Origin: Phycisphaerae bacterium
GTDB lineage: Bacteria; Chloroflexota; Anaerolineae; 4572-78; J111
Assembly (NCBI GenBank): GCA_028285035.1
Contig: JANQQF010000169.1
Coordinates: 1-30,092, forward strand
DNA: 30,092 bases
Direction of reading: 5' to 3'
The notes under the pieces were generated by a model, which saw only the letters and a list, made by a program, of their open reading frames with translations, did no database searches and was not told where the DNA came from. A program made the translations under genes and the position numbers. Below are positions 1 through 17,551 of this stretch, one piece after another (the first letter of the stretch is position 1; each line of letters opens with the position of its first letter).

Positions 1-99
1 GATTATTCCGATGTTATCATTCCGTTTATGGGTGAGTATCCTAACCTCATTGAGCCTCTAACCAATGATGAGCCATTTGATTGGGAGTTGCCCGTATGA
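1..99 (+). CDS. C-terminal end of an unidentified protein (partial)
   Basis: The frame starting at base 1 is open to a TGA at 97-99. It gives 32 residues rich in acidic and hydrophobic positions, ending DEPFDWELPV. The gene begins outside the window. Its stop overlaps the ATG of the next gene (ATGA at 96-99), which is typical of translationally coupled genes and supports this frame being real. The fragment is too short to assign a family. Confidence 0.6.
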   Translation, partial: DYSDVIIPFMGEYPNLIEPLTNDEPFDWELPV

Positions 100-440
100 G
101 TAACGAAATGAACTTTAGTGAAGCTCCAGCCTCAATAAATTTGCGATTTAACTACAAAGGCTACAACGGCGTAATGCTCACCCTACGCGGCCCGAGCGGC
201 CTCGACGTCCTACAAAAGCTCGACGCCGCCCTCGCCAAACTCGACGCCATCGGCGCGACGCCCCACACGGGCACCCCGCCCCGCTCGACGCATGGCAGCA
301 ACGAGAATGGCTCCGTACCGCAATGCCCACAACACGGGCCGATGAAACCGAGCAAACACGGTGGCTACTATTGCCCCAAAAAGATTGCCGAGGATGGCGG
401 GAATGGTAAGCCGATCTACTGCAAGGCAAAAGCGGAATAA
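96..440 (+). CDS. Small protein with C-terminal zinc-ribbon-like segment
   Basis: The start is placed at ATG 96 because it overlaps the stop of the preceding gene; a TTG at 81 would also be in frame. The product has about 114 residues. The N-terminal half reads like a small beta-rich domain (LRFNYKGYNGVMLTLRG) followed by an Ala/Leu-rich helix. A low-complexity linker leads to a Cys/His cluster (CPQHGPMKPSKHGGYYCP and a final C) that could bind zinc. The motif CPxHGPM also occurs in the unrelated small protein at 12981-13283. It may be a DNA- or RNA-binding accessory protein of the element, but that is inference; I do not recognise the family by name. Confidence 0.7.
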   Translation: MSNEMNFSEAPASINLRFNYKGYNGVMLTLRGPSGLDVLQKLDAALAKLDAIGATPHTGTPPRSTHGSNENGSVPQCPQHGPMKPSKHGGYYCPKKIAEDGGNGKPIYCKAKAE

Positions 441-444
441 AAAA

Positions 445-466
445 GGGGAGACGCCTTTGTCTCCCC
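445..466 (-). terminator. Intrinsic terminator for minus-strand transcription
   Basis: An 8-bp stem GGGGAGAC/GTCTCCCC encloses a 6-nt loop. On the minus strand it is followed by six T residues and then ATT; on the plus strand it has no T tract. It therefore ends minus-strand transcripts, yet the gene beside it reads plus. The nearest minus-strand gene is the E2-like gene ending at 1639, now separated from it by the TnpB element. Confidence 0.7.
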
Positions 467-479
467 AACCAATCGGACT

Positions 480-1655
480 AAAAATCAGGCAGTGATAGAT
501 AGCTCCGAATTGATAACAATGAAAATAACTGCAAAAATCAAGCTCCAACCAAATAGCGACCAACATGCGGCCCTATTGACTACTCTCGAAACCGCCAACG
601 CCGCTTGCAACTACATTAGCCAAGTCGCTTGGGACAATCGGACATTCCGACAGTTTGACCTACACCATTTTGTCTATTACGATGCCCGTGAACGCTTCGG
701 CCTATCCGCAGATATGACCATTCGCTGTATTGCCAAGGTCGCTCACGCTTATAAAGCTGATCAGAAAACCAAGCGTACATTCAAAGCAACAGGTGGCTTT
801 CCTTACAACCCTCGCACGTTACGCTATGTAATTGAGGGCGGCTTTGTAACCATCTGGTCGATAGTGGGTCGCCTCAAAATCTCCTTTGTCGCTGGTAATC
901 GTCAACTTGAACAACTCAAAACCCAAAAAGGTGAAAGTGAATTACTCTTTACCAACGGTCAGTTTTACCTTGCCGCCACTTGTGACACTGACGAACCCGA
1001 TCCCATCGAACCCACAGACGTTTTAGGTGTCGATCTCGGTATCAAAAACATTGCGACAACCTCAGACGGGCAGAAGTTTGCCGGAAATCACCTTAACAAC
1101 ATTCGCCGCCGTAGACGTAGGCAACGAAAAAACATTCAACCCGTGGGTACGAAATCGTCTAAGCGCAAACTCAAACGCTTGTCGGGTAAAGAACGTCGTT
1201 TTGCTACCCACATTAACCACTGTATCAGTAAGCAAATCGTAAACACTGCGAAAGACACGAATAGCGCGATTGCTCTTGAAGACCTCAAAGGTATTCGCAA
1301 TAGGATACGGCTTCGCCGCAGTCAGCGCGACGATTTGCACAGTTGGGCCTTCTTTCAGTTGGGCGAGTTTATCAAGTACAAAGCCAAGCTTGCGGGTGTT
1401 CCCGTGGTTTTTGTTAACCCTCGATACACTTCTCAGGCTTGCCATAAGTGCGGCTCGATTGATAAAGGTAATCGCAAAACGCAAGATAAATTCCTATGCC
1501 TTTCGTGTGGACACGCTGACCACGCGGACATTAACGCGGCCCTGAACATTTCTGTTCTTGGTCGGGCAGTTGTAAACCTGCCAATAGACTCGAGCTGGTC
1601 AGAAGCTACTCTATTAGCCCTTACCGCATAGTTCAGGGTCAAAGCCCTCTAGGGT
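480..1655 (+). mobile_element. IS200/IS605-family TnpB-only element (IS1341-like), approximate ends
   Basis: This element consists of a single tnpB with short flanks and no TnpA transposase. The left flank (about 480-518) contains a sequence that recurs at 28.29 kb as one arm of a long hairpin, consistent with a transposon end. The right flank just after the tnpB stop has small stem-loops (AGGG-TCAAAG-CCCT and CCCTCTAGGG) where an omega-RNA scaffold would be encoded in this family. Exact ends cannot be fixed without an empty-site comparison. The right end appears to reach into the last codons of the converging E2-like gene. Confidence 0.5.
519..1631 (+). CDS. tnpB: TnpB RNA-guided nuclease (IS605 OrfB family)
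   Basis: The product has 370 residues from ATG 519 (MKITAKIKLQ, the usual TnpB beginning); GTG 492 upstream is in frame but adds non-family residues. TnpB is a transposon-encoded endonuclease guided by an RNA from the element's right end. The split RuvC domain is complete: D172 in GVDLGIKN, E254 in IALEDLKG, and D337 in DHADINAALN. A four-cysteine zinc ribbon is intact (C308, C311, C327, C330), and an arginine-rich stretch lies near 205-215. Length matches compact TnpBs, so the protein looks active rather than decayed. There is no tnpA nearby, so mobility would depend on a transposase elsewhere. It converges on the E2-like gene, with only 7 bases between the two stops. Confidence 0.95.
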   Translation: MKITAKIKLQPNSDQHAALLTTLETANAACNYISQVAWDNRTFRQFDLHHFVYYDARERFGLSADMTIRCIAKVAHAYKADQKTKRTFKATGGFPYNPRTLRYVIEGGFVTIWSIVGRLKISFVAGNRQLEQLKTQKGESELLFTNGQFYLAATCDTDEPDPIEPTDVLGVDLGIKNIATTSDGQKFAGNHLNNIRRRRRRQRKNIQPVGTKSSKRKLKRLSGKERRFATHINHCISKQIVNTAKDTNSAIALEDLKGIRNRIRLRRSQRDDLHSWAFFQLGEFIKYKAKLAGVPVVFVNPRYTSQACHKCGSIDKGNRKTQDKFLCLSCGHADHADINAALNISVLGRAVVNLPIDSSWSEATLLALTA

Positions 1656-2289
1656 TGTTTACCGCCTCCTGAAATTGTCCATAATAAATTAAATCCTTAA
1701 CCGGGTATTTCTTTGCTTTAGCCTGGTGCAGCTCGCGCCACATGGCCAAGACTGAGCCGCCGTGCTTCCGACTTTTGCCATTACTTAGGTGGTCATTGAA
1801 GCCACTTTCAAAAAACACCTCAACCGCCTGCCAGATCGTACTCAGTCCAGCCACCGGAAAGGCGGCGGAGCCAGCACAAACGCCGTGTTGTCCAGACACG
1901 TTAGGACACGGCGCGTGATAGATCGACGTGTGGCGATCTGGCCAGTCATTACCCTTGAGGGCATAGGCCCCATAGTTGCGCCCCCAGCCAAAAAACACGA
2001 GCGGAGGCAAGGGCACCTTCAGGGTCTCGGCCTCACTCGTCACACTCACTGACCACACCTGCGCTGGCACCAGCACGCCAACATACTCCTGACCATCACG
2101 CCGACCGACCCACAAACACCCCTGGGGTAGCGGCCCGGCGGTCACATTGATACCGGACAGCGCCGCTGTTACCGCTTGCGGGTCCACACAGTACGGCTCC
2201 TCGCCGTGTTTATGTAGCAGGACTGCATCGCTGTAGAGATGAAGGCTGCCCTGGTAGCGGCTATAATCCATTGATGTGTAGTTACTCAT
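1639..2289 (-). CDS. E2-like protein, PRTRC system protein B type (Prok-E2 family D)
   Basis: The product has about 216 residues, starting at ATG 2289 behind GCGAGG; this start overlaps the upstream stop by 8 nt, implying coupling. The C-terminal half matches what I know of PRTRC protein B. It has PPLVFFGWGRNYGAYAL, then an IYHAPCPNV segment, then GVCAGSAAFP carrying the candidate catalytic cysteine. After that come VEVFFESGFNDH and a helical end with a WRELHQ segment. In this family the protein is proposed to act as the E2 partner of a plasmid ubiquitin-like pathway with a ThiF E1. Here the ubiquitin-like gene is two genes upstream and no E1 is visible. The last residues (NNPRGL) lie where a TnpB element abuts, so the native C-terminus may be altered. 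Assignment is from motif memory, without a search. Confidence 0.75.
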   Translation of the reverse strand: MSNYTSMDYSRYQGSLHLYSDAVLLHKHGEEPYCVDPQAVTAALSGINVTAGPLPQGCLWVGRRDGQEYVGVLVPAQVWSVSVTSEAETLKVPLPPLVFFGWGRNYGAYALKGNDWPDRHTSIYHAPCPNVSGQHGVCAGSAAFPVAGLSTIWQAVEVFFESGFNDHLSNGKSRKHGGSVLAMWRELHQAKAKKYPVKDLIYYGQFQEAVNNPRGL

Positions 2290-3184
2290 TATCACCTCGC
2301 AGGGTCGCTGTCACGACCTCGTAAACTCTTTGTAATTTGGCCTGGTCCTGATTGGCCCACAACAGGAGCGGCTCAATCTGTTGCTTGATCTCCATCGCCT
2401 CGGCCCACATCTGCTTGATCAAACCCAGGTCTTGATCCCAGAGCCAACGGTCAGGCCAAATTTCATCGTTCATATCCCAGTACTCATCCAAAACGATATT
2501 CCCCGTCTCGCCGCAAGCCCATTGGGCCGCTAGGGGGATGGCATTTAAGGGCGGTTCAAGTTGATCAAGCACCCCTAGCTGTACAACTAAGTCACACGTC
2601 CGCCCCGTATGGGCTTGATAGATTGGCCCTTCCCGCCACTGCTGTATTTGTCTCTCGAGTAGATTATGGTTAATCTTGGGTAGCCATCGGTCGTGATCGT
2701 ACTTATATAAACCAACCCCACCAACTAATCCCTCTAGTAACGCCAAGACAGGATACTGGTTAATATCCGCCCCCTCCCAACCAATTTCGCCAGGTCCAAA
2801 CCCTAATAAATTGATCGGGATACCATCAAGAAATCCAGCAAAATACCACAATGACATTGGCTCGCCGTCTTCTTCCCAATCTTCCTCATGCTGGGCCGCC
2901 ACCCACAGGTCTTCCAATAACCAATCACAAACATCAAACCAGCCAGCCGCCTTCACCAATGCCAAAAAGTGACCAAATGCATCAACCCAGTAGAGGCCTT
3001 GTGAAATAGCCTCCACATCGGCCAACGACGCTGGAAAATGGGTCTCGACTAAATACAGTACCCGCTCTAGCCGCAAATACTGGGGGGTTCGCAGTGATCG
3101 CCCCGTCACTCGGGCCAAGGTTCGACCTGGCCTTAAAACCCGATGGGGGGCTTGGGGCCAGGTACGGGTGTCAATTGCAAACAT
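2282..3184 (-). CDS. Uncharacterised PRTRC-operon protein (possibly protein F-like)
   Basis: The product has 300 residues. The start at ATG 3184 is supported by GAGAGG eight bases upstream; it overlaps the 3' end of the ubiquitin-like gene by about 50 nt. It is rich in Trp, Asp and Glu, mostly helical in appearance, with an N-terminal basic segment (PHRVLRPGRTLARVTGRSLR) and an acidic middle (EEDWEEDGEP). No catalytic motif or membrane segment is evident. Position between a ubiquitin-like and an E2-like gene matches the place of protein F in PRTRC cassettes, so I suggest that identity only from context. The function is unknown. Confidence 0.7.
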   Translation of the reverse strand: MFAIDTRTWPQAPHRVLRPGRTLARVTGRSLRTPQYLRLERVLYLVETHFPASLADVEAISQGLYWVDAFGHFLALVKAAGWFDVCDWLLEDLWVAAQHEEDWEEDGEPMSLWYFAGFLDGIPINLLGFGPGEIGWEGADINQYPVLALLEGLVGGVGLYKYDHDRWLPKINHNLLERQIQQWREGPIYQAHTGRTCDLVVQLGVLDQLEPPLNAIPLAAQWACGETGNIVLDEYWDMNDEIWPDRWLWDQDLGLIKQMWAEAMEIKQQIEPLLLWANQDQAKLQRVYEVVTATLRGDNE

Positions 3185-3606
3185 TTAGATATCCTCTCGT
3201 GCCATACACGACTCTCATACGCTTCGGTCCGAATGACCTCGGCGATACCAACTACATCAGCCCTATCACCATCCTCGGCCCGTATCAACATCTCAACTGC
3301 CGGATCATCTTTTTCAGGCAGACCAAGCAACGCCTCAGTCATCTGCTCAACTTGCCGGGCAAAACTGGCCTTCTCCGCCTCAAACTCGGCCCGAAAGTCA
3401 TCATTCCCCTTGGTGCCCGTTTTCTTGGCGAATTCAATGGTCTGCTGGCCTTTGGTTTTTTTGCCAATGGTGTAGGTCGCAACCTGTAAGGTTTTATCAA
3501 ACTGGCCGAAATGGGCCTGGATCTGCTCAATCCGCCTGACAGTAACCTCTTCCAATTCTTCCTGGTGGATCTCTTTCCCTGCGTGCTTGTAAATAACCTT
3601 GATCAT
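3133..3606 (-). CDS. Prokaryotic ubiquitin-like protein (PRTRC protein C-like) with C-terminal extension
   Basis: The product has 157 residues. The ATG at 3606 overlaps the ParB stop (ATGA). Residues 1-67 fit the PRTRC protein C pattern: a KVIYKHAG beta-hairpin start, a helix around EEVTVRRIEQIQAHFG, then TIEFAKKTGTKG. Family members normally end at or near the GTKG motif, which would be the conjugated end. Here 90 further residues follow: a charged helix (FRAEFEAEKASFARQVEQM), an acidic region, and a proline-rich tail ending PPIGF. If the protein is conjugated, the extension would have to be removed first; alternatively the domain works as a fixed fusion. The gene lies between ParB and the E2-like operon members. 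Family assignment is by remembered motif, not by search. Confidence 0.65.
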   Translation of the reverse strand: MIKVIYKHAGKEIHQEELEEVTVRRIEQIQAHFGQFDKTLQVATYTIGKKTKGQQTIEFAKKTGTKGNDDFRAEFEAEKASFARQVEQMTEALLGLPEKDDPAVEMLIRAEDGDRADVVGIAEVIRTEAYESRVWHERISKCLQLTPVPGPKPPIGF

Positions 3607-4706
3607 TTCGCCTCCTTTAATTTCTCGTACTGATCCGCCGGGATGTGCGTCTCAAGCATTGAGAGCAACCCCGACACCATATAATTGAATGAACGGGTAT
3701 CATTCACCGGCCCGATCTCGCCATCGCTGTCCAGCGTCAACAGACACTGTCCACTCGGCCCAATCGTCACCGCCAGCCGCCAGGTTGTCCCCAGTTTATC
3801 CACAGGAGACGCAGCCGGTGGCGGTGGGGGAGGGGGTGGGGGCGTCGTTGACTTGGGTTTGGGTTGGGGCGTGGCCTCGCGCTCAATATCGGCCCGAAAG
3901 GGTGGCGCATCACCATATGAGGCTGCGGCCTCGTCTTCTTGTCCCTCAACGGGTAACCACTCCGTATCCGTCGGGTGCGGCGGAGGTGAGGCTGGAGCCG
4001 GGCTGGTGGGTGGCTCCTCTTCGGTATCTTCCTTGAGCCACATCGGCAACGGCTGCGCCTGTGCTGGCTCAGGCTTCGAGCGCTTGATCGAGCGTGGCCG
4101 TTCAATGCCGTCGGTCCCGATCAGGGTCTCACGTATCGGAATTTCCGAGGCTGCCTCCAGCGCCTCACGCACGCTACGAACGGTTTTGTCTGTGGTGTGG
4201 CAATCCTTGGCCAACCACACGTCAGACCGCTCGGGGTATCGCTTAAGCTGCCGCTCAATCACCTGCCGCTTTTCCCGCCGGCTGAGTTGGATACCGTGCT
4301 TGAGGTTATCCAGATCGGCATACTCCTCAGCCGCGGCGCGATCACCTGCTTTGACAATAAACCAGCCGGTTTCAGCCCCAGCCAGCTTGTGCGCGGCCAG
4401 CCGGTGGAAGCCACCGACCAGGGTGTACTGCTCGCCGATTTGAAAGACTGTCATCGGCGGCAGCTCGCTAAGATGCTGGCTGTACTCCATCACCGCGTCC
4501 TGCTCCAGCGCCCCCTCGCGAGGGTTGAGGCTGTTGTCGACGTGAATTTGGTCTATGGGCAGCTCGACGGAAACCGTCGAGCTGCGGAGGCTCTCAAAGC
4601 GGCCCTCTAAAATCGCCGACCGAGAGGTGCCCCGCTCGTCTGCTTCTTTTTGGGCATCCTCCAACATATCCAAGGGAATGGGCACCGCTACGCGTTGTTT
4701 CTTCAT
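3603..4706 (-). CDS. ParB-family partition protein with N-terminal ribbon-helix-helix
   Basis: The product has 367 residues, with GGAG nine bases before ATG 4706. Residues 1-40 look like a ribbon-helix-helix DNA-binding domain (RVAVPIPLDMLEDAQKEA, TSRSAILEGR). Residues about 45-125 form a ParB/Srx N-terminal domain with LNPREG (60-65) and the nucleotide-binding signature GGFHRLAAHKLAG (98-110). A helical HTH-like segment follows (SRREKRQVIERQLKRYPERSD, KDCHTTDKTVRSVREAL). After a long Pro/Glu-rich linker including about nine consecutive prolines comes a compact C-terminal domain (TWRLAVTIGPSGQCLLTL). It probably segregates the element and may bind the repeats at 4.82-4.96 kb just upstream. 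It is the first gene of the PRTRC-like operon. A perfect 9-bp DnaA box falls at 3796-3804 inside it, possibly by chance. Confidence 0.85.
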   Translation of the reverse strand: MKKQRVAVPIPLDMLEDAQKEADERGTSRSAILEGRFESLRSSTVSVELPIDQIHVDNSLNPREGALEQDAVMEYSQHLSELPPMTVFQIGEQYTLVGGFHRLAAHKLAGAETGWFIVKAGDRAAAEEYADLDNLKHGIQLSRREKRQVIERQLKRYPERSDVWLAKDCHTTDKTVRSVREALEAASEIPIRETLIGTDGIERPRSIKRSKPEPAQAQPLPMWLKEDTEEEPPTSPAPASPPPHPTDTEWLPVEGQEDEAAASYGDAPPFRADIEREATPQPKPKSTTPPPPPPPPPAASPVDKLGTTWRLAVTIGPSGQCLLTLDSDGEIGPVNDTRSFNYMVSGLLSMLETHIPADQYEKLKEAK

Positions 4707-4822: not shown

Positions 4823-4864
4823 GTAACAAAATGATTCACTGACGTGACAAAATGTTACAAAATT
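4823..4864 (+). repeat. Three iteron-like repeats GTNACAAAATK
   Basis: GTAACAAAATG (4823-4833), GTGACAAAATG (4844-4854) and GTTACAAAATT (4854-4864) are phased at 21 and 10 bp, close to two turns and one turn of helix. The first two are both preceded by AC. They lie in the gap between the initiator-like and ParB genes, beside AT-rich DNA (4861-4880). This is a plausible binding array for the initiator or the ParB/RHH protein. Confidence 0.6.
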
Positions 4865-5982
4865 TATTTAAAAAAATTTTCGCTGTCTTTATCTTGGGAC
4901 ATATATGTCCCAAGATTGATCGGTTGGCCTGGGATCTTGGGACATATATGTCCCAAGAACGCTTCGTTAGGCCGAAATTCCTGGGTTAACTGGCGATGCT
5001 CTGACCAGCCCGGCAAAAACGAAACCAAGCTCTCCACATCGATCTGTTCCCACTCCTCGCGACTGATATCCAAGCTCTCGATAAGCGAGGGTCGCCCTTC
5101 GCTACGACGAGCGGGGCGCAACCAATACTCGTGTTGCTCCTGCAGGTGTGGACTCAGTTGGGCCACTTGGGTGGGGGTTAAAATGGGCAGATACCGCCAC
5201 GTCTGGATATCCAGCCGATTGGCCCATTTGGGGCCGGGTGTGATCTCTACCGCAATCAGATGCTCTTGATAGAGCACCTCTAAGGCCCCCACCTGCCAAT
5301 GAAGACACTTGACCCGACCTGTGGATGTCTGTTCAATCTTCACCGGCCCATACTTCTCACAACACACCGTCGGCGGCGCATCGGACGAGGCCGAGGCCGT
5401 GACCCAGCACTCCACCGGCCCCCCCTTGACGGCGCGGGCGTGACTGCGCCCAATATCCCGGGCCAAAGGCCGATAGTTGTATCGCAGCGGCGGGGACCAG
5501 CGATATTCAGGCTGGTCGATGTCCCGCTCATCATTGGGGATGCGGTGGTCGCTGTCGAGCCGTTTCCACAGGTTGAAGGCTAGACCCAAGTAGGGTGCCC
5601 AGAATGTGGTGGTGTAGTGGCTGATCCGGCTAAAGCCGCCGAGCCGGGCCGGGGTGTAGTCTCGCCCAGCCAAAGGCACGATTTGGGGTCGATCCCCTGG
5701 GGTAAGTGTCTCACGTTGGGTGAGTGTCTCACGTTGCGTGAGTGGCTCGGGCGGTTGCACCACGAATTCGACGGTTAGCGGCTGGCCGTAGGCGTGGGTG
5801 ACGGCGCGGGTGACGTGGCGTAGGAGATGACCTTTTGCGGCTTCCACGGCCAGATCATTGCTCAAGCCGATCTGTAGGGTAGTGTCTTTGATGACCGGCT
5901 TCGTTGAGCGCAACCCCCACTGTTGGATCGCAGGTTCAAATTGTGGGCCTAGATAACTCAAGGCGATTGACCATTTATCCAC
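4864..5982 (-). CDS. DnaA N-terminal-domain-like replication initiator candidate
   Basis: The product has 372 residues from GTG 5982. The first ~75 residues resemble the DnaA domain I fold: W4..ALSYLGPQFEPAIQQW, LQIGLSNDLAVEAAKGHLLRHVTRAVTHAYG, then LTVEFVV. No AAA+ or DnaA box-binding domain follows, so it is not DnaA; plasmid and phage initiators or adaptors carry such N-domains. A short duplication (LTQRET twice, near residues 81-93) and a basic mid-region follow. The last 30 codons overlie two long palindromes. Upstream, a mini-frame with a better ribosome site (GAGGAG before GTG GTG at about 6021-6024) ends in a TAA overlapping this start. Either a 13-residue leader peptide couples translation, or a frameshift hides a longer N-terminus. 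The role in replication is inferred from the domain and from the repeats and ParB next door. Confidence 0.6.
   Translation of the reverse strand: MDKWSIALSYLGPQFEPAIQQWGLRSTKPVIKDTTLQIGLSNDLAVEAAKGHLLRHVTRAVTHAYGQPLTVEFVVQPPEPLTQRETLTQRETLTPGDRPQIVPLAGRDYTPARLGGFSRISHYTTTFWAPYLGLAFNLWKRLDSDHRIPNDERDIDQPEYRWSPPLRYNYRPLARDIGRSHARAVKGGPVECWVTASASSDAPPTVCCEKYGPVKIEQTSTGRVKCLHWQVGALEVLYQEHLIAVEITPGPKWANRLDIQTWRYLPILTPTQVAQLSPHLQEQHEYWLRPARRSEGRPSLIESLDISREEWEQIDVESLVSFLPGWSEHRQLTQEFRPNEAFLGHICPKIPGQPINLGTYMSQDKDSENFFK
4891..4958. repeat. Pair of long perfect palindromes inside the initiator-like gene
   Basis: Two copies are centred 43 bp apart: a 26-bp perfect palindrome at 4891-4916 and a 24-bp one at 4935-4958. 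Both are built on TCTTGGGACATA and its complement. They sit in the last codons of the 372-residue gene and are read in two different frames (LGHICPK and LGTYMSQ), so protein sequence does not explain their identity. This points to selection for a DNA site: origin iterons, a partition site or an operator. Confidence 0.85.
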
Positions 5983-6057
5983 GTGAGTTTGTCCTTGATT
6001 GGTTATTTGTCACCACGATCTCCTCAAAAATGTAAAGTTTGTAAATTTTTTTATCCA
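5975..6057. other. Possible origin: degenerate DnaA boxes beside AT-rich DNA
   Basis: TTATCCACG at 5975-5983 matches the DnaA box at 8 of 9 positions and contains the initiator start codon. TTATCCAAG at about 6049-6057 matches 7 of 9. Between them is an AT-rich run (about 6028-6050). The placement directly upstream of a DnaA-N-like gene is suggestive only. Confidence 0.35.
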
Positions 6058-6103
6058 AGCTCTTGTACCCTACCAAAGGGCAAGAAACTCGCTATGCGAA
6101 AGA

Positions 6104-6343
6104 CTATAGGGTTTGATTGTAATTTCCGGCGCGTGCATCACGGGCCTTTTGATCGATGATCAGGGTGGAGGTGGCCACCTGGGCCAGGGATTGGCCCAGA
6201 ATGGGGTTGTCCGATCCCTCCGTCTCTTCAATCAGGGTTCTGATATGGGGGGCCATTCGTCGGCACTCCTCAATGATGTCATCCAAACCCCAACCAACTT
6301 TGTTGGATATTCGGGTTCGGGATTGAGTGTTTGACTTGCTCAA
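6104..6343 (-). CDS. Hypothetical small helical protein
   Basis: The product has about 80 residues from TTG 6343, chosen because GGGGGT lies just upstream; a TTG at 6367 is also in frame but adds an unconvincing hydrophobic start. It begins SKSNTQSRTRISNKVGWGLDDII and contains a helix ECRRMAPHIRTLIEETEG and another around LAQVATSTLIIDQKARDA. No cysteine or histidine cluster or membrane segment is visible, and I do not recognise the family. It lies upstream of, and co-directional with, the initiator-like gene, with 121 bp between them. Confidence 0.5.
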   Translation of the reverse strand: MSKSNTQSRTRISNKVGWGLDDIIEECRRMAPHIRTLIEETEGSDNPILGQSLAQVATSTLIIDQKARDARAGNYNQTL

Positions 6344-6659
6344 AAATACCCCCAAAAATAGTCTCAAAATTCAGGATCGCTCTAAATCCGTGCTATCCTG
6401 CCCTTAACAATGTTAAATAAAACCCTTTTTTTATAGGGTAGGCCCCGTCCCTCAACAGTGACCTACCCTTACTTAGAGAGGCCCACCTCTCTGCCGTGGG
6501 TGTTGGCCAGGGTGCGTGGTGCCTGAGCCGTCCGCACGTACAGAGGAGTAGGGCACGTTTAATCTAGGTTGCTCCTTGTGCCCCCTGGCCGTGCGACCAG
6601 GGGGACTTACAAAGGAGGAGGAGAAGAAGCACGGCTGGTAGACCAGACCAACCGGCCCA
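6344..6659. other. Non-coding region with several hairpins
   Basis: No convincing gene is present. A 13-bp inverted repeat TTAACA-A-TGTTAA (6404-6416) could be an operator. Hairpins include GGGTAGG/CCTACCC (about 6436-6470), AGAGAGG/CCTCTCT (about 6475-6492) and CCCCCTGG/CCAGGGGG (about 6580-6603). A purine-rich run (AAAGGAGGAGGAGAAGAAG) follows at about 6611. On the minus strand this lies downstream of the tRNA-like gene. It may be a structured RNA or decayed tRNA-cluster DNA; I cannot assign it. Confidence 0.4.
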
Positions 6660-6752
6660 GGTGACTGTCGGGAGTCGAACCCGAATCTACGCCCGACCAC
6701 TTACGCTCTCAATTCGTGTGGCGGGGTGCTCTGCCTGTTGAGCTACAGTCAC
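6660..6752 (-). tRNA. tRNA-like gene with abnormal anticodon arm
   Basis: Acceptor arms GTGACTG/CAGTCAC pair perfectly. A normal D arm (GCTC AACAGGCA GAGC) and a normal T arm (TCGGG TTCGACT CCCGA) are present. Between them are about 42 nt instead of the usual 22. They contain CCCG and CCAC pairing with GTGG and CGGG around a 17-nt loop rather than a standard 5-bp stem and 7-nt loop, so no anticodon can be read. No CCA is encoded. It could be a tRNA with an insertion in the anticodon arm, a decayed phage tRNA, or a tRNA mimic. Confidence 0.55.
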
Positions 6753-8806: not shown

Positions 8807-8834
8807 GACTATCAAACAGACCAAAGAGGACGTG

Positions 8835-11492
8835 ATGATTGATCCTGGTAAAATCAATCGCCCCCCCCTGGGCAACGTCCTGACCCGCACGAGATTGGCT
8901 CAAAAAATCGATGGTCTCACCGACCATCGATTAATCATTATTTCCGCCCCTGCCGGGTCAGGCAAAACAACATTATTGGTTGATTGGGGTAACTCCGCCG
9001 AGTTACCCATCTGCTGGCTATCCTGCGACGACCGGCTGACCGAGCTGGCCGAGTTCGCCCGCTACGTGCTGGCCGCGCTAGGCACCCGTTTCCCGGCCCT
9101 AAATGACATCCCCCTCACCCCCGATACCCCCATCAACACCGCCCGCGATATCGTCACCCAGCTCAATCACACCATCGGCCTAAATCAGCCCGTGGTCCTG
9201 ATGATCGACGATTGGAACCAGGTCGATACCAGTCAGGCGGTTAATGAGTTTATGGCTGAGTTTCTGATGCTTACCCATTCGGTCAAGATCGTCTTAGCCA
9301 GTCGCCATCTGGTGCGGCTGCCCAACCTGGCCACCCTGATCGTCAAGGGCTACGTGGCCGAGGGGATCGACTACGAAGAGATGGCCTTCACCGTCGACGA
9401 GGTCAAACAACTTTCCCTCATTCAAAACGGGCTGGCCCTCTCCACCGAGGACGCCGAGCGCATCACCAAAGAAACCGACGGCTGGGCAATGGCCATCGCC
9501 CTCCGCGCCCGGCAACACATTGCCCCGGAAAGTGCGGTCTATGATTATCTCGACCGCGAGATCTTTAGCTACTTTAGCGATGACACCCAAAAGTTTCTCC
9601 TCGAAAGCAGTGTGGTGGCTCCCTTCGATACCCCCATCTGCCACGCCGTGCTCAAGCTGCCCGATTGCGCCCCCTACATCAACGAAATCACCAACGCCAA
9701 CCTCAGCCGCCTCCAGGACGACAACCTGATCAGCTATCCCCCCCTCTTTGACGACTTCCTGACCCACACCATCCGCAGCCAGCAACCCGAACACTACCAC
9801 ACCCTCACCCGCCGCCTGGCCGATTACCAGCGCGAACGGGGTGACTTTAAGGCCGCCTATGCGACCCTGCGCCGCATCGAGGACAACGGTCAGATTATCA
9901 AACTAATCGAATGCGCCGCCGTCCAGATGATCCGCGACGGCGAGCAGGTGACCCTGGGCAATTGGCTCAAGGCGTTGCCGGTGGCCGTGGTTGAGGGGAA
10001 TGCCTGGTTGTTGGCCGTACGGGGGAATATCCAGATCACCGGCATCGAGGCTGATGGCCTGGCCGATCTATCGCGGGCGATGGCGTTGGCCAAGCCCGAG
10101 CAGCTACCCCGCATTTTATTGTGGCGGGCCGTGAGTCATTACAACGCCGGGCGGTATGATGCAGCCTTGACCGATATCGAGGCCATTGATTTGACCCAGG
10201 ATACGGGGTTGTTGGCCGAGACGATTTGGGTAAAGGGAAATTGCGCCCGGCGACAACGACAATTTAAGGAAGCGATTAGCCACTATCAACAGGCTATCGC
10301 GGTTTGTGGTGAAGCCAAACTCACGCATATTATAAAATTAGAATTAGCTTTAGCTTACGAACAAACCAACGACTTGGCCCAGGCTGAACGAGTTTATCTT
10401 GATATTTTGAACTATTGGGAAGCGAGCCAGAATATTCAACAACTCGCCTACACTTGGAATAATACAGGGGTCGTTTATCATCGCCAACACCGCTACATTG
10501 AGGCCATTGAGGCTTTTGATAAATCGATCTACCACGCTTACCAAAGCGGCAACCAACGGGCCGCAATATTAGCAGCGGCTAGTGTGGGCGATCTTTACCG
10601 CGATACTCGCGCCATAGATGAGGCTCGTATTGCCTTTATGAAGGCGGCGGACGGGGCAAAGCGAATCGGTTACGAGTTTATCGAACGCTACGCCACCAAC
10701 GCCCTAGCCAGTCTCGACACCATCACCTTGCCCGAGATCGATAACCTCAACCATATCCGACGGGAAATTCGTAAACGCGCACAACATCTCCCTTATGCCC
10801 CGGCCCAGGTAGATATTCGATCCTTTGGGCGGGTCAATGTCCATATTAACCAGAATCGGGTCGAGTTCAAACAGCGAAGCGCAGTCCACCTCCTTTTCTT
10901 GTTATTACAAAAGGCCCGTGGCTTGACCAAGCCCGAAATCGTGGCTGACCTCTGGCCTCATACCACAATTTCACGCAGCCAATATCACCGCATTGTCCAC
11001 GAGTTACGCGACGCAATGCAGGGCGTGGTATCGTTTGATAGCACAGAGAATCAATGGGGGTTTGACTGGTCGTCAGATTACTATTGGGATGTCGAAACCC
11101 TTCTAGCCATCGAAAGTGAGGCCGATCTTGAACGACTAACTTTCGCCTTGGAACTATGGCAGGGAGACTACCTACCTGACGCGGGCTATGAATGGGTCCG
11201 TGAATTTCGAGATGAGTTAGAGCAACTCTATTTGGATAAAACCGGCCACGTGGCCCACACCTATGAGGCAAATAATGATCGATCACGCGCCACTCGTTGG
11301 GCCAAAGCCCTACTCGATCAAGACCCTTACGATGAAGAAGCTGTCCGTATTCTAATGCGTGCCGCCATTACCAGTGGAAACAATGGGCGAGCCGCCACGA
11401 TTTACCGGCGATGCGCGAGCAAGTTAAAAATAGACCTCGGTATTGAGCCGAGCGAAGAGACAAAGTTAGTCTTACAGACCATCCAAGCCTAG
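8835..11492 (+). CDS. LuxR/MalT-like ATPase transcriptional activator with BTAD domain
   Basis: The product has 885 residues from ATG 8835 (GTG 8832 also possible) behind AAAGAGGA. The order is a STAND-type NTPase with Walker A APAGSGKT (38-45) and Walker B VVLMIDDW (about 120-127), then a helical winged region. A long TPR-like helical array follows (about 330-640; pairs such as WNNTGVVYHRQHRYIEAIEAFDKS). Next is an OmpR-type winged helix (about 655-735, FKQRSAVHLLFLLLQKA, KPEIVADLW, SQYHRIVHELRDAM). A bacterial transcriptional activation domain closes the protein (about 745-885, FALELWQGDYLPDAGYEWV, KIDLGIEPSEETKLVLQ). Such proteins are signal-sensing activators typical of Chloroflexota and Actinobacteria. 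It is monocistronic, with its own promoter and terminator. The target is unknown; the peptide genes downstream are candidates. Confidence 0.92.
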   Translation: MIDPGKINRPPLGNVLTRTRLAQKIDGLTDHRLIIISAPAGSGKTTLLVDWGNSAELPICWLSCDDRLTELAEFARYVLAALGTRFPALNDIPLTPDTPINTARDIVTQLNHTIGLNQPVVLMIDDWNQVDTSQAVNEFMAEFLMLTHSVKIVLASRHLVRLPNLATLIVKGYVAEGIDYEEMAFTVDEVKQLSLIQNGLALSTEDAERITKETDGWAMAIALRARQHIAPESAVYDYLDREIFSYFSDDTQKFLLESSVVAPFDTPICHAVLKLPDCAPYINEITNANLSRLQDDNLISYPPLFDDFLTHTIRSQQPEHYHTLTRRLADYQRERGDFKAAYATLRRIEDNGQIIKLIECAAVQMIRDGEQVTLGNWLKALPVAVVEGNAWLLAVRGNIQITGIEADGLADLSRAMALAKPEQLPRILLWRAVSHYNAGRYDAALTDIEAIDLTQDTGLLAETIWVKGNCARRQRQFKEAISHYQQAIAVCGEAKLTHIIKLELALAYEQTNDLAQAERVYLDILNYWEASQNIQQLAYTWNNTGVVYHRQHRYIEAIEAFDKSIYHAYQSGNQRAAILAAASVGDLYRDTRAIDEARIAFMKAADGAKRIGYEFIERYATNALASLDTITLPEIDNLNHIRREIRKRAQHLPYAPAQVDIRSFGRVNVHINQNRVEFKQRSAVHLLFLLLQKARGLTKPEIVADLWPHTTISRSQYHRIVHELRDAMQGVVSFDSTENQWGFDWSSDYYWDVETLLAIESEADLERLTFALELWQGDYLPDAGYEWVREFRDELEQLYLDKTGHVAHTYEANNDRSRATRWAKALLDQDPYDEEAVRILMRAAITSGNNGRAATIYRRCASKLKIDLGIEPSEETKLVLQTIQA

Positions 11493-15646: not shown

Positions 15647-17551
15647 ATGAAACTCGATAGCCGCCGTTTCTTTTCAACCACCCAGCGCAACGAAATATTT
15701 GTCATGTACAAAGGGCGTTGCGCGATCTGTGGTGAGAAGCTGGACGAGAACTGGCAAGCGGATCACATTATTCCGTGGTCACAGGGCGGTCGGACGGTTA
15801 TCGAGAATGGACAACCTACTTGTGAAACGTGCAATAAAAAGAAAGGGGTTAGCACTATGAAGCCAAGAGAGTGGCAAGCGAAATTTCTGCGAAGTTATGA
15901 GGCGTGGATTGATCGGGATTATCTTCTGGTCGCCACACCAGGGGCGGGAAAAACTAGTGCGTCATTACTGGCTGCCAAGCAGTTGATACAACGACGAGAG
16001 ATCGAAAAAGTGATTGTTGTTTGTCCTACCTCGTCGCTGAAAAAACAGTGGGCCGATAGTGCTGCCAACTTCGGTATCCAGCTTGACCCCAATTGGGAAA
16101 ACGGGCCGATTAAGCGCGATTATCACGGAATTTGCCTGACATACAGCAAGACTGTTCACAGTGAGAGAATGCTACAGTTTCTTTGTGATCAAGATGCAAT
16201 GATTATTCTTGATGAAATACACCACTCTGGTGACGATAAAGCTTGGGGAATATCTGTTACAAACTCCTTCGAGGAATCATATCGCGTACTGGGTCTATCT
16301 GGAACACCTTTTAGAGGTGACAATAGTGAAATTCCTTTTGTTCAGTACGAAAAGGGTGTTGCTATTCCCCAATTCACGTATGGTTACAAGGACGCAATTA
16401 AGGATAATGTATGTCGAATGGTGATGTCTCCCTCTTTGGACGGCGGTGCTGAATTTTACCATCGAGGAAAGATGCACGAATGGAATTCGTTTACCGACAT
16501 TACAAACCGAGATGAGGAATCACAACTACTTAAAGCTCTGTTGATTGACGTTGAAGGTGATTATTTAACCGAAGTTTTAACCGAAGCAAACGAACGATTA
16601 GACGAAATAAGAAGACACGATACATCGAATGCTGGTGGGCTTGTTGTCTCGATAAGCACAGATCACGCCGATAGTATAGCGAATCGGCTAGAGTTTATAA
16701 CTGGTGAAAAACCGGCGGTGGTTCACTCTAACACGCCTAACCCAACAGATATTATTAAGAATTTTGCTAAATCAAAAAAGAAGTGGATTGTTGCCGTTCG
16801 GATGGTATCGGAAGGGGTAGACATTAAACGGTTACGGGTTGGGGTCTATGCCACCAACATTATGCAAGAATTAACCTTCCGCCAGATTATCGGGCGTGTC
16901 GTGAGGCGAACCGATGAATATGATAAATGGGCCTATTTTTATATCCCCCTAGCCCCTCGATTGGTCGAATTTATGACCAGAATCAAAGACGAGATCACCC
17001 ACGTCATTAACGAGGGGCGAAATAAACCACCAGCGATCGACATTGATTACAACGAAGATGAACCAAAAGAGCCAAAAGAATACACCCCCTCACCTATCAT
17101 CCCCACCGGAACGGATCGCAACAGGCCCGAAGACAAGGTTATAGCAGAAAGCCAGTCCTATAATTTTGATGAAGCGAAAAGGCGAAAAGAACAAGCCGAG
17201 CAAGAAATGGGAATCACATTGAATGAATGGGAATGGGCTAGAATTATGGAGATAGCTAGAGACGAAGAGGACCAATCAGAACCAGAGCTAAAACCAGAAA
17301 AACCTAAGTATTTAAAGAAAGAAAAACTGGGACCAGAGTGCAACAGAGCCGCCTATAGCGCGGCCTCTCAGATTAAAGCGATGTATGACACAAGTTTGGA
17401 CACCAGACAGATTGTCTCTAGAATACACGCTTATTGGAACAAGCAAGCAGGCATTAAGTCGCAGCGTGACGCAACAGTTGCTCAATTGGAAAAGAAACTG
17501 ATTTGGCTCAAGAGTGGTCAAGTCGAGAAAAATCCGAGGTGGTTTCTATAA
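15647..17551 (+). CDS. HNH nuclease fused to SF2 helicase
   Basis: The product has 634 residues. The HNH domain is at about 10-70: CAICGEKL (C25, C28), DHIIPWSQGG (D39, H40), C59 and C62 completing the zinc knuckle, with N63 following. The SF2 DEAD/DEAH helicase is at about 75-430: ATPGAGKT (96-103), DEIH (179-182), SGT (208-210), VSEGVDI (377-383), QIIGRVVRR (403-411). The last 200 residues are charged, with linker KEPKEYTPSP and helices. The helicase resembles restriction- and defence-type translocases; a fusion to HNH at the N-terminus suggests a DNA-cutting motor. All key residues are present. The ribosome site is weak. The stop shares a base with the next start (TAATG), so at least three genes are coupled. 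The role, whether defence, replication or recombination, is not shown by sequence alone. Confidence 0.88.
   Translation: MKLDSRRFFSTTQRNEIFVMYKGRCAICGEKLDENWQADHIIPWSQGGRTVIENGQPTCETCNKKKGVSTMKPREWQAKFLRSYEAWIDRDYLLVATPGAGKTSASLLAAKQLIQRREIEKVIVVCPTSSLKKQWADSAANFGIQLDPNWENGPIKRDYHGICLTYSKTVHSERMLQFLCDQDAMIILDEIHHSGDDKAWGISVTNSFEESYRVLGLSGTPFRGDNSEIPFVQYEKGVAIPQFTYGYKDAIKDNVCRMVMSPSLDGGAEFYHRGKMHEWNSFTDITNRDEESQLLKALLIDVEGDYLTEVLTEANERLDEIRRHDTSNAGGLVVSISTDHADSIANRLEFITGEKPAVVHSNTPNPTDIIKNFAKSKKKWIVAVRMVSEGVDIKRLRVGVYATNIMQELTFRQIIGRVVRRTDEYDKWAYFYIPLAPRLVEFMTRIKDEITHVINEGRNKPPAIDIDYNEDEPKEPKEYTPSPIIPTGTDRNRPEDKVIAESQSYNFDEAKRRKEQAEQEMGITLNEWEWARIMEIARDEEDQSEPELKPEKPKYLKKEKLGPECNRAAYSAASQIKAMYDTSLDTRQIVSRIHAYWNKQAGIKSQRDATVAQLEKKLIWLKSGQVEKNPRWFL

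Follow-up and report, generated by a model that had tools for sequence, protein, structure and literature searches.

The contig JANQQF010000169.1 (assembly GCA_028285035.1, Phycisphaerae bacterium), analysed here over the whole 30,092 bases presented (hereafter the window), carries near its left end a cassette of four overlapping minus-strand open reading frames (ORFs) related to ubiquitin-like conjugation systems. In the order of transcription, these encode a ParB-like protein (4706-3603), a ubiquitin-like protein (Ubl; 3606-3133), a 300-residue protein (3184-2282) and an E2-like protein (2295-1639); gene coordinates are window positions unless another locus is named, and related loci are given by L numbers. 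The overlapping arrangement reported in a preliminary description of this DNA was borne out by both sequence and translation. Its assignment of a Ubl and an E2 was also retained, whereas the order was not, as the Ubl gene is the second and the E2 gene the fourth in the operon. The features at the locus are as follows.

3603 to 4706, minus strand: ParB-like protein of 367 residues (PHROG ParB-like, E = 1.4e-10)
3406 to 3606, minus strand: Ubl core, residues 1-67 of a 157-residue protein, ending in GTKG (residues 64-67)
3136 to 3405, minus strand: companion domain, residues 68-157 of the same protein, delimited by profile search and ending in PIGF; stop codon at 3133-3135
2282 to 3184, minus strand: 300-residue protein, with homologues in L011, L030 and L031 and a matching operon position
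1639 to 2295, minus strand: E2-like protein (Pfam Prok-E2_D), 216 residues from an ATG at 2289
492 to 1631, plus strand: TnpB-type gene (NCBIfam guided_TnpB, 208 bits against a cut-off of 100), probable start ATG at 519

The ubiquitin-like precursor and its companion domain

The second gene is predicted to encode a ubiquitin-like protein, as indicated by relatives that match Ubl models, a predicted beta-grasp fold and shared motifs. L011 encodes a homologue (E = 1.9e-9) that scores 30.2 bits with Prok_Ub, and VIA-align comparison of the beta-grasp model of the window protein with Foldseek candidates gave modest Z scores. The final Lys-Gly of the Ubl domain is invariant in 16 and 14 aligned rows. 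Gly67 of GTKG is thus conserved; its position is internal, with the companion domain following it, while the Ubl gene ends exactly after GxKG in L002, L031 and L033 and two residues later in L035. As judged from its sequence, the window Ubl is a precursor, in which a domain ending in GTKG is followed by a separate companion domain.

The companion is a conserved domain of approximately 83 residues, found in the window (3136-3405) and in L002-L004, L006-L018, L030, L031 and L033-L035. Ubl and companion were sought in 26 loci, the window included, of which 23 have a Ubl; L001, L032 and L036 showed none in the stretch searched and were excluded. Among these 23 loci, the companion is fused to the Ubl in 10, encoded by a separate adjacent downstream gene in 12 and undetected in one (L005). 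The companions of L007 and L009 were missed at first and were found by a second search restricted to one short region. Some of the loci are closely related to one another (L007-L009, L013-L014 and L033-L035), so that these counts do not represent independent events. The companion is helical in the predicted model, and no Pfam or NCBIfam family scored above cut-off in eight proteins bearing it. Its C-terminus is nearly always a glycine plus one hydrophobic residue (P-x-G-F/L). The eight fusions that seeded the profile were picked for their GF ending, so the seed endings carry no weight and the profile is biased towards GF; the 14 non-seed companions end in GF (10), GL (three) or neither (one, L004).

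The distribution of fused and unfused Ubl genes is the pattern that would be expected if the JAB peptidase frees the Ubl. A JAB gene is present on the same record in all nine relatives with a fused Ubl-companion precursor (with Pfam matches below cut-off in L012, L015 and L034), and one is therefore expected for the window precursor too. Both records with a Ubl but without an intact JAB (L002 and L033) have an unfused Ubl, as does L035, in which a truncated JAB lies beside the cassette. Plasmid p1 of Planktothrix agardhii (L002) provides a natural contrast for this maturation idea: ThiF is present, the Ubl gene ends at GSKG, and no Pfam JAB match was found in the whole 119,566-base record. Since L031 has a JAB and yet an unfused Ubl, the association of fusion with JAB is one-way only. 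From the precursor layout, JAB cleavage after GTKG is predicted, which speaks against a JAB-free system.

A further reading, which we regard as unlikely, is that a JAB-type cut after GTKG yields two mature products from the 157-residue gene and that the companion has a dedicated function in the Ubl systems of phages and plasmids, as an adaptor, an E3-like partner or a second helical modifier. In the boldest variant, the companion would be this second, helical modifier, with its terminal glycine exposed by the same protease. No description of the companion, or of an E1-less phage copy, was recognised in the literature, with preprints and most subscription papers outside the search.

The E2-like protein and the other genes of the cassette

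The E2-like protein scores 80.8 bits with Prok-E2_D (PF14460), well above the gathering score of 25. Its predicted active residue, the candidate Cys138 (1876-1878), sits in a PN..xVCxG frame, similar to the HPN..C frame of eukaryotic E2s, and all aligned rows (20/20 and 14/14) share this cysteine and the Pro-Asn before it. The AlphaFold model has a mean pLDDT of 85. VIA-align comparison of the model with Foldseek candidates returned 24 rows; the first 17 are entries containing a ubiquitin-type E2, in which the aligned chain was taken as the E2 from its length, and the Z scores were low (top 4.3). With Foldseek, neither the E2 model nor the Ubl model gave a match at E <= 0.001, and sequence-profile searches for a solved structure of either found none. 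The names E2 and Ubl are therefore based chiefly on family matches and motifs in the sequence.

The conserved residues bear on a highly improbable alternative, in which no conjugation takes place and the Ubl and E2 bind non-covalently within a complex for partition or replication. ParB-like and other genes neighbour the cassette in some relatives and no conjugation target is known, as this alternative would allow; however, the cysteine and Pro-Asn of the E2 and the final Lys-Gly of the Ubl are all invariant in the aligned rows given above, in line with conjugation.

The 300-residue protein gave no match to PRTRC_F. In profile-profile comparison it matched the same-position proteins of two sets of loci: one set with six loci from plasmids and one from IMG/VR (96.5%, 82 columns), and one with eight IMG/VR loci (98.1%, 228 columns). 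We infer its family identity from these comparisons: it is probably the helical, rapidly diverging protein of operon type 6d, as described in the available part of PMC1779556.

The ParB-like protein showed a weak match to Pfam ParB_N (E = 0.042) and has homologues in L006, L011, L012, L030 and L031. A head of approximately 44 residues (residues 1-44) is absent from its two best-matching relatives, L031 and L011. The ribbon-helix-helix domain formerly proposed for this head was not confirmed, as the antitoxin-like matches were weak (E = 0.14 and 0.3). Single-protein queries of genome and viral contigs with the E2, the 300-residue protein, the ParB-like protein and a 119-residue ORF from the left end of the window yielded no confirmed relative, nor did an E2 alignment against genome contigs.

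Absence of E1 and JAB genes from the window and the break at the E2-JAB junction

Profiles built from the relatives were run against 261 six-frame stretches of at least 50 residues in the window, and the best E values were 0.2 for ThiF and 0.27 for JAB. In leave-one-out controls, 17/17 ThiF and 14/14 JAB sequences scored better than 1e-40; among the ThiF controls, L006 and G001 are the same gene, so that neither was genuinely withheld, and the rows include some that are closely related to each other. The earlier observation that the window encodes neither ThiF nor JAB therefore stands. ThiF and JAB matches were found in all 15 IMG/VR records retrieved by E2 similarity, with JAB above the Pfam cut-off in 13 of them. 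In addition, the JAB gene starts no more than 20 nucleotides from the E2 stop codon in 13 of the 16 loci measured.

At this junction the window carries the TnpB-type gene, whose homology starts at residue 6-12. It lies on the strand opposite the E2 gene, with 7 nucleotides between the two stop codons. Given this spacing, and with a short CCCT/AGGG repeat present in the E2 tail (1645-1654), the last E2 residues may derive from the right end of the TnpB element. The left contig edge lies 1.6 kb past the E2 gene and approximately 0.5 kb beyond TnpB, the latter interval holding the end of a rightward gene group. An Rfam search of the window at gathering thresholds found a tRNA only and no guide RNA family. 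TnpB genes also occur close downstream of the cassette in an IMG/VR record (L006, 9088-10242) and in plasmid pCHRO.01 (L004, 9674-10858).

Family and PHROG scans of the window identified tape-measure, distal-tail and collar proteins, indicating a phage-like contig. This contig is probably incomplete, since the window has no end repeat, an ORF crosses its left edge (to 99, plus strand) and no head or packaging family appears among the PHROG matches listed for 30 window ORFs and proteins. Of four IMG/VR records checked, one (G005) has an end repeat, of 127 nucleotides. The tape-measure protein had no match in the 13 records searched, a search made without a positive control; thus, kinship to those phages is shown for the cassette region only.

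Taken together, the reading that we consider reasonably probable, and our first choice, is displacement: the window would hold the front half of a phage-borne Ubl conjugation operon, broken at the E2-JAB junction, with JAB and E1 elsewhere on the same phage genome. The analysis itself shows the homology, that the cysteine motif of the E2 is intact, how the precursor is laid out and where the operon breaks.

Our second choice, possible but doubtful, is that the cassette is decaying: JAB and ThiF would have been deleted when TnpB arrived, and the remaining genes would be idle or being lost. The TnpB gene at the junction is in keeping with such a loss, for which plasmids also provide cases (below). 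However, the four ORFs of the window are intact, with tight overlaps, and both the E2 cysteine and GTKG are kept; no JAB or ThiF remnant was seen in the six-frame stretches searched, and none of the 15 IMG/VR records shows the loss.

Separation and loss on plasmids

Plasmids supply precedents for both separation and loss. Plasmid pCHRO.01, which is circular, carries the genes for the Ubl, the helical protein and E2 at 259.4-261.4 kb and an intact JAB-ThiF pair at 294.8-296.2 kb, leaving a gap of 33.4 kb between the E2 gene and the pair, with a TnpB gene 2.1 kb past the E2 gene. A second Chroococcidiopsis plasmid has its E2 gene at 33.9 kb and JAB-ThiF at 317.4-318.8 of 319.1 kb, a similar split if the record is circular. 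These plasmids indicate that the operon can break at the E2-JAB junction with the second half kept.

A search of plasmids with the E2 gave 118 records, of which the best 60 were listed; the first 42 of these were cyanobacteria and Chlorohelix. Thirty-seven of the 42 are among the best 60 of 371 ThiF records and 37 among 48 JAB rows, with 35 in both. Four of the five without a listed ThiF were searched whole, with NZ_CP064882.1 left out, and none of these complete plasmids has a full ThiF (three blank, one with a fragment). This favours decay, as does the truncation of JAB, ThiF or E2 in three of the four (L033, L034 and L035), with insertion sequences beside L034 and L035. The ThiF-less plasmid NZ_AP017561.1 has a JAB match of 82.9 bits far from its cassette.

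The plasmids also bear on a third alternative, in which the phage keeps Ubl and E2 as a working minimal form while E1 and JAB are supplied by the host or by another element in the cell. Pseudanabaena galeata CCNP1313 and Tolypothrix PCC 7712 each hold a ThiF-less plasmid plus full-set plasmids, and full-set plasmids occur likewise in ABRG5-3 and PCC 7601, so that borrowing between replicons is possible. In plasmid AP017376.1 (L032), E2 and the helical protein are kept, and neither ThiF nor JAB was found on the record. Against a minimal form, no Ubl was found in the stretch of AP017376.1 searched, and none of the nine fused-precursor relatives lacks JAB. We consider the minimal form quite improbable and rank it a distant third behind displacement and loss. 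The preliminary description had headlined a reduced cassette and named displaced genes as the alternative. Our analyses favour the latter and do not support the headline, because the contig looks incomplete, TnpB lies at the junction, all 15 IMG/VR records have ThiF and JAB matches, and a Ubl precursor should need a protease.

Comparison with known systems

The closest description is that of operon type 6d (Iyer, Burroughs and Aravind 2006; PMC1779556), which, in the available part of that paper, comprises a Ub-like protein, a rapidly diverging helical protein, an E2-like protein, JAB and an E1-like protein, with examples that include cyanobacteria. The window has the same kinds of genes, with an E2-like protein that carries the conserved cysteine and a Ub-like protein that carries the conserved glycine (internal here), and the full complement is matched in its relatives. 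The JAB and E1-like genes of this type were not found in the 30,092 bases, whereas the 15 IMG/VR relatives have them. In addition, the window Ubl is fused to its companion rather than being a small standalone protein, the setting is a phage, and the companion was not found in the available part of the description.

The resemblance to PRTRC systems is likewise partial. The window E2 matches PRTRC_B and the relatives match PRTRC_C, PRTRC_A and PRTRC ThiF, but the window E2 (74.3 against 131.45 bits) and the Ubl, JAB and ThiF of L030 fall below the curated cut-offs. For PRTRC_C, L030 scores 17.9 and L010 36.5 against a cut-off of 45.95; only the locus of Burkholderia phage BgVeeders33 (L005) passes the cut-offs of PRTRC_C and PRTRC_F. 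Of the matches to PRTRC proteins C and B noted previously, the one to B was thus recovered below its cut-off, while the window Ubl matched neither PRTRC_C nor Prok_Ub among the Pfam and NCBIfam models. At these cut-offs the cassette does not qualify for a strict PRTRC label, and it is more safely described as related to PRTRC and of operon type 6d.

The Bil (BilABCD) systems, as presented in the available part of PMC11354881, share a Ubl, an E1, an E2 and a JAB-type deubiquitinase, but their BilA has two Ubl domains. PADLOC models gave no match to the four window proteins at E 0.01; the nucleotide-binding part of the L030 ThiF does match PADLOC models, of the E1-E2 kind. The lambdoid TAPI/TAPK tail assembly proteins also offer a phage Ubl with a C-terminal domain, for which release by JAB at the last glycine was proposed; they differ in genes and in place, and E1 and E2 are not described there in the available part of PMC1779556.

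Proposed mechanism

On the displacement reading, the JAB peptidase would cut the 157-residue precursor after Gly67 of GTKG and so free the Ubl from its companion. A ThiF-type E1 would then adenylate and charge Gly67, after which Cys138 of the E2 would take over the Ubl. Attachment to a target would fall to the E2, possibly aided by the helical protein or the companion, and JAB could remove the Ubl again. We infer every one of these enzymatic steps, as well as the target and the placing of JAB and E1 outside the contig. In the available parts of the two reports, JAB was proposed to free the Ubl from other Ubl fusions (PMC1779556), and BilC, the deubiquitinase of Bil systems, was reported to process BilA, the Ubl, first (PMC11354881).

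Other features of the window

Two further groups of genes flank the cassette and TnpB.

4864 to 6367, minus strand: two upstream genes (372 and 87 residues) that accompany the cassette in its nearest relatives
1 to 491, plus strand: end of an unrelated rightward gene group, with the frame from the edge to 99 and the 119-residue ORF at 81-440

Homologues of the 372-residue protein were found in L011, L030 and L031, and of the 87-residue protein in L011. The rightward group includes a terminator-like inverted repeat at 445-466 and gave no family match.

Elsewhere in the window, ARAGORN reads a four-base anticodon (cacg) in a minus-strand tRNA gene at 6660-6752 (Rfam tRNA, 42.8 bits) and assigns no amino acid. 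A plus-strand gene at 15647-17551 encodes a 634-residue protein with an HNH nuclease domain before a DEAD/DEAH helicase; its best PADLOC match is PbeA, with 86.9 bits over the helicase part. An 886-residue MalT-like ATPase with TPR repeats and a BTAD domain (8832-11492, plus strand) is unusual for a phage-like contig.

Implications for phage and plasmid ubiquitin-like systems

These results remove the tempting claim of an E1-free ubiquitin-like system and leave testable points in its place. In a clade of phages and cyanobacterial plasmids related to PRTRC, the Ubl appears to be made in precursor form, with a defined candidate site for cleavage. Fused to the Ubl or encoded next to it is a companion that is conserved but that Pfam and NCBIfam do not model. 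The existence of fused and split copies allows a test of whether the JAB peptidase acts in maturation as well as in removal. Finally, the presence of whole Ubl-E2-JAB-E1 operons on phages, some beside ParB-like genes, turns the matter of what these systems modify into a concrete question of targets.

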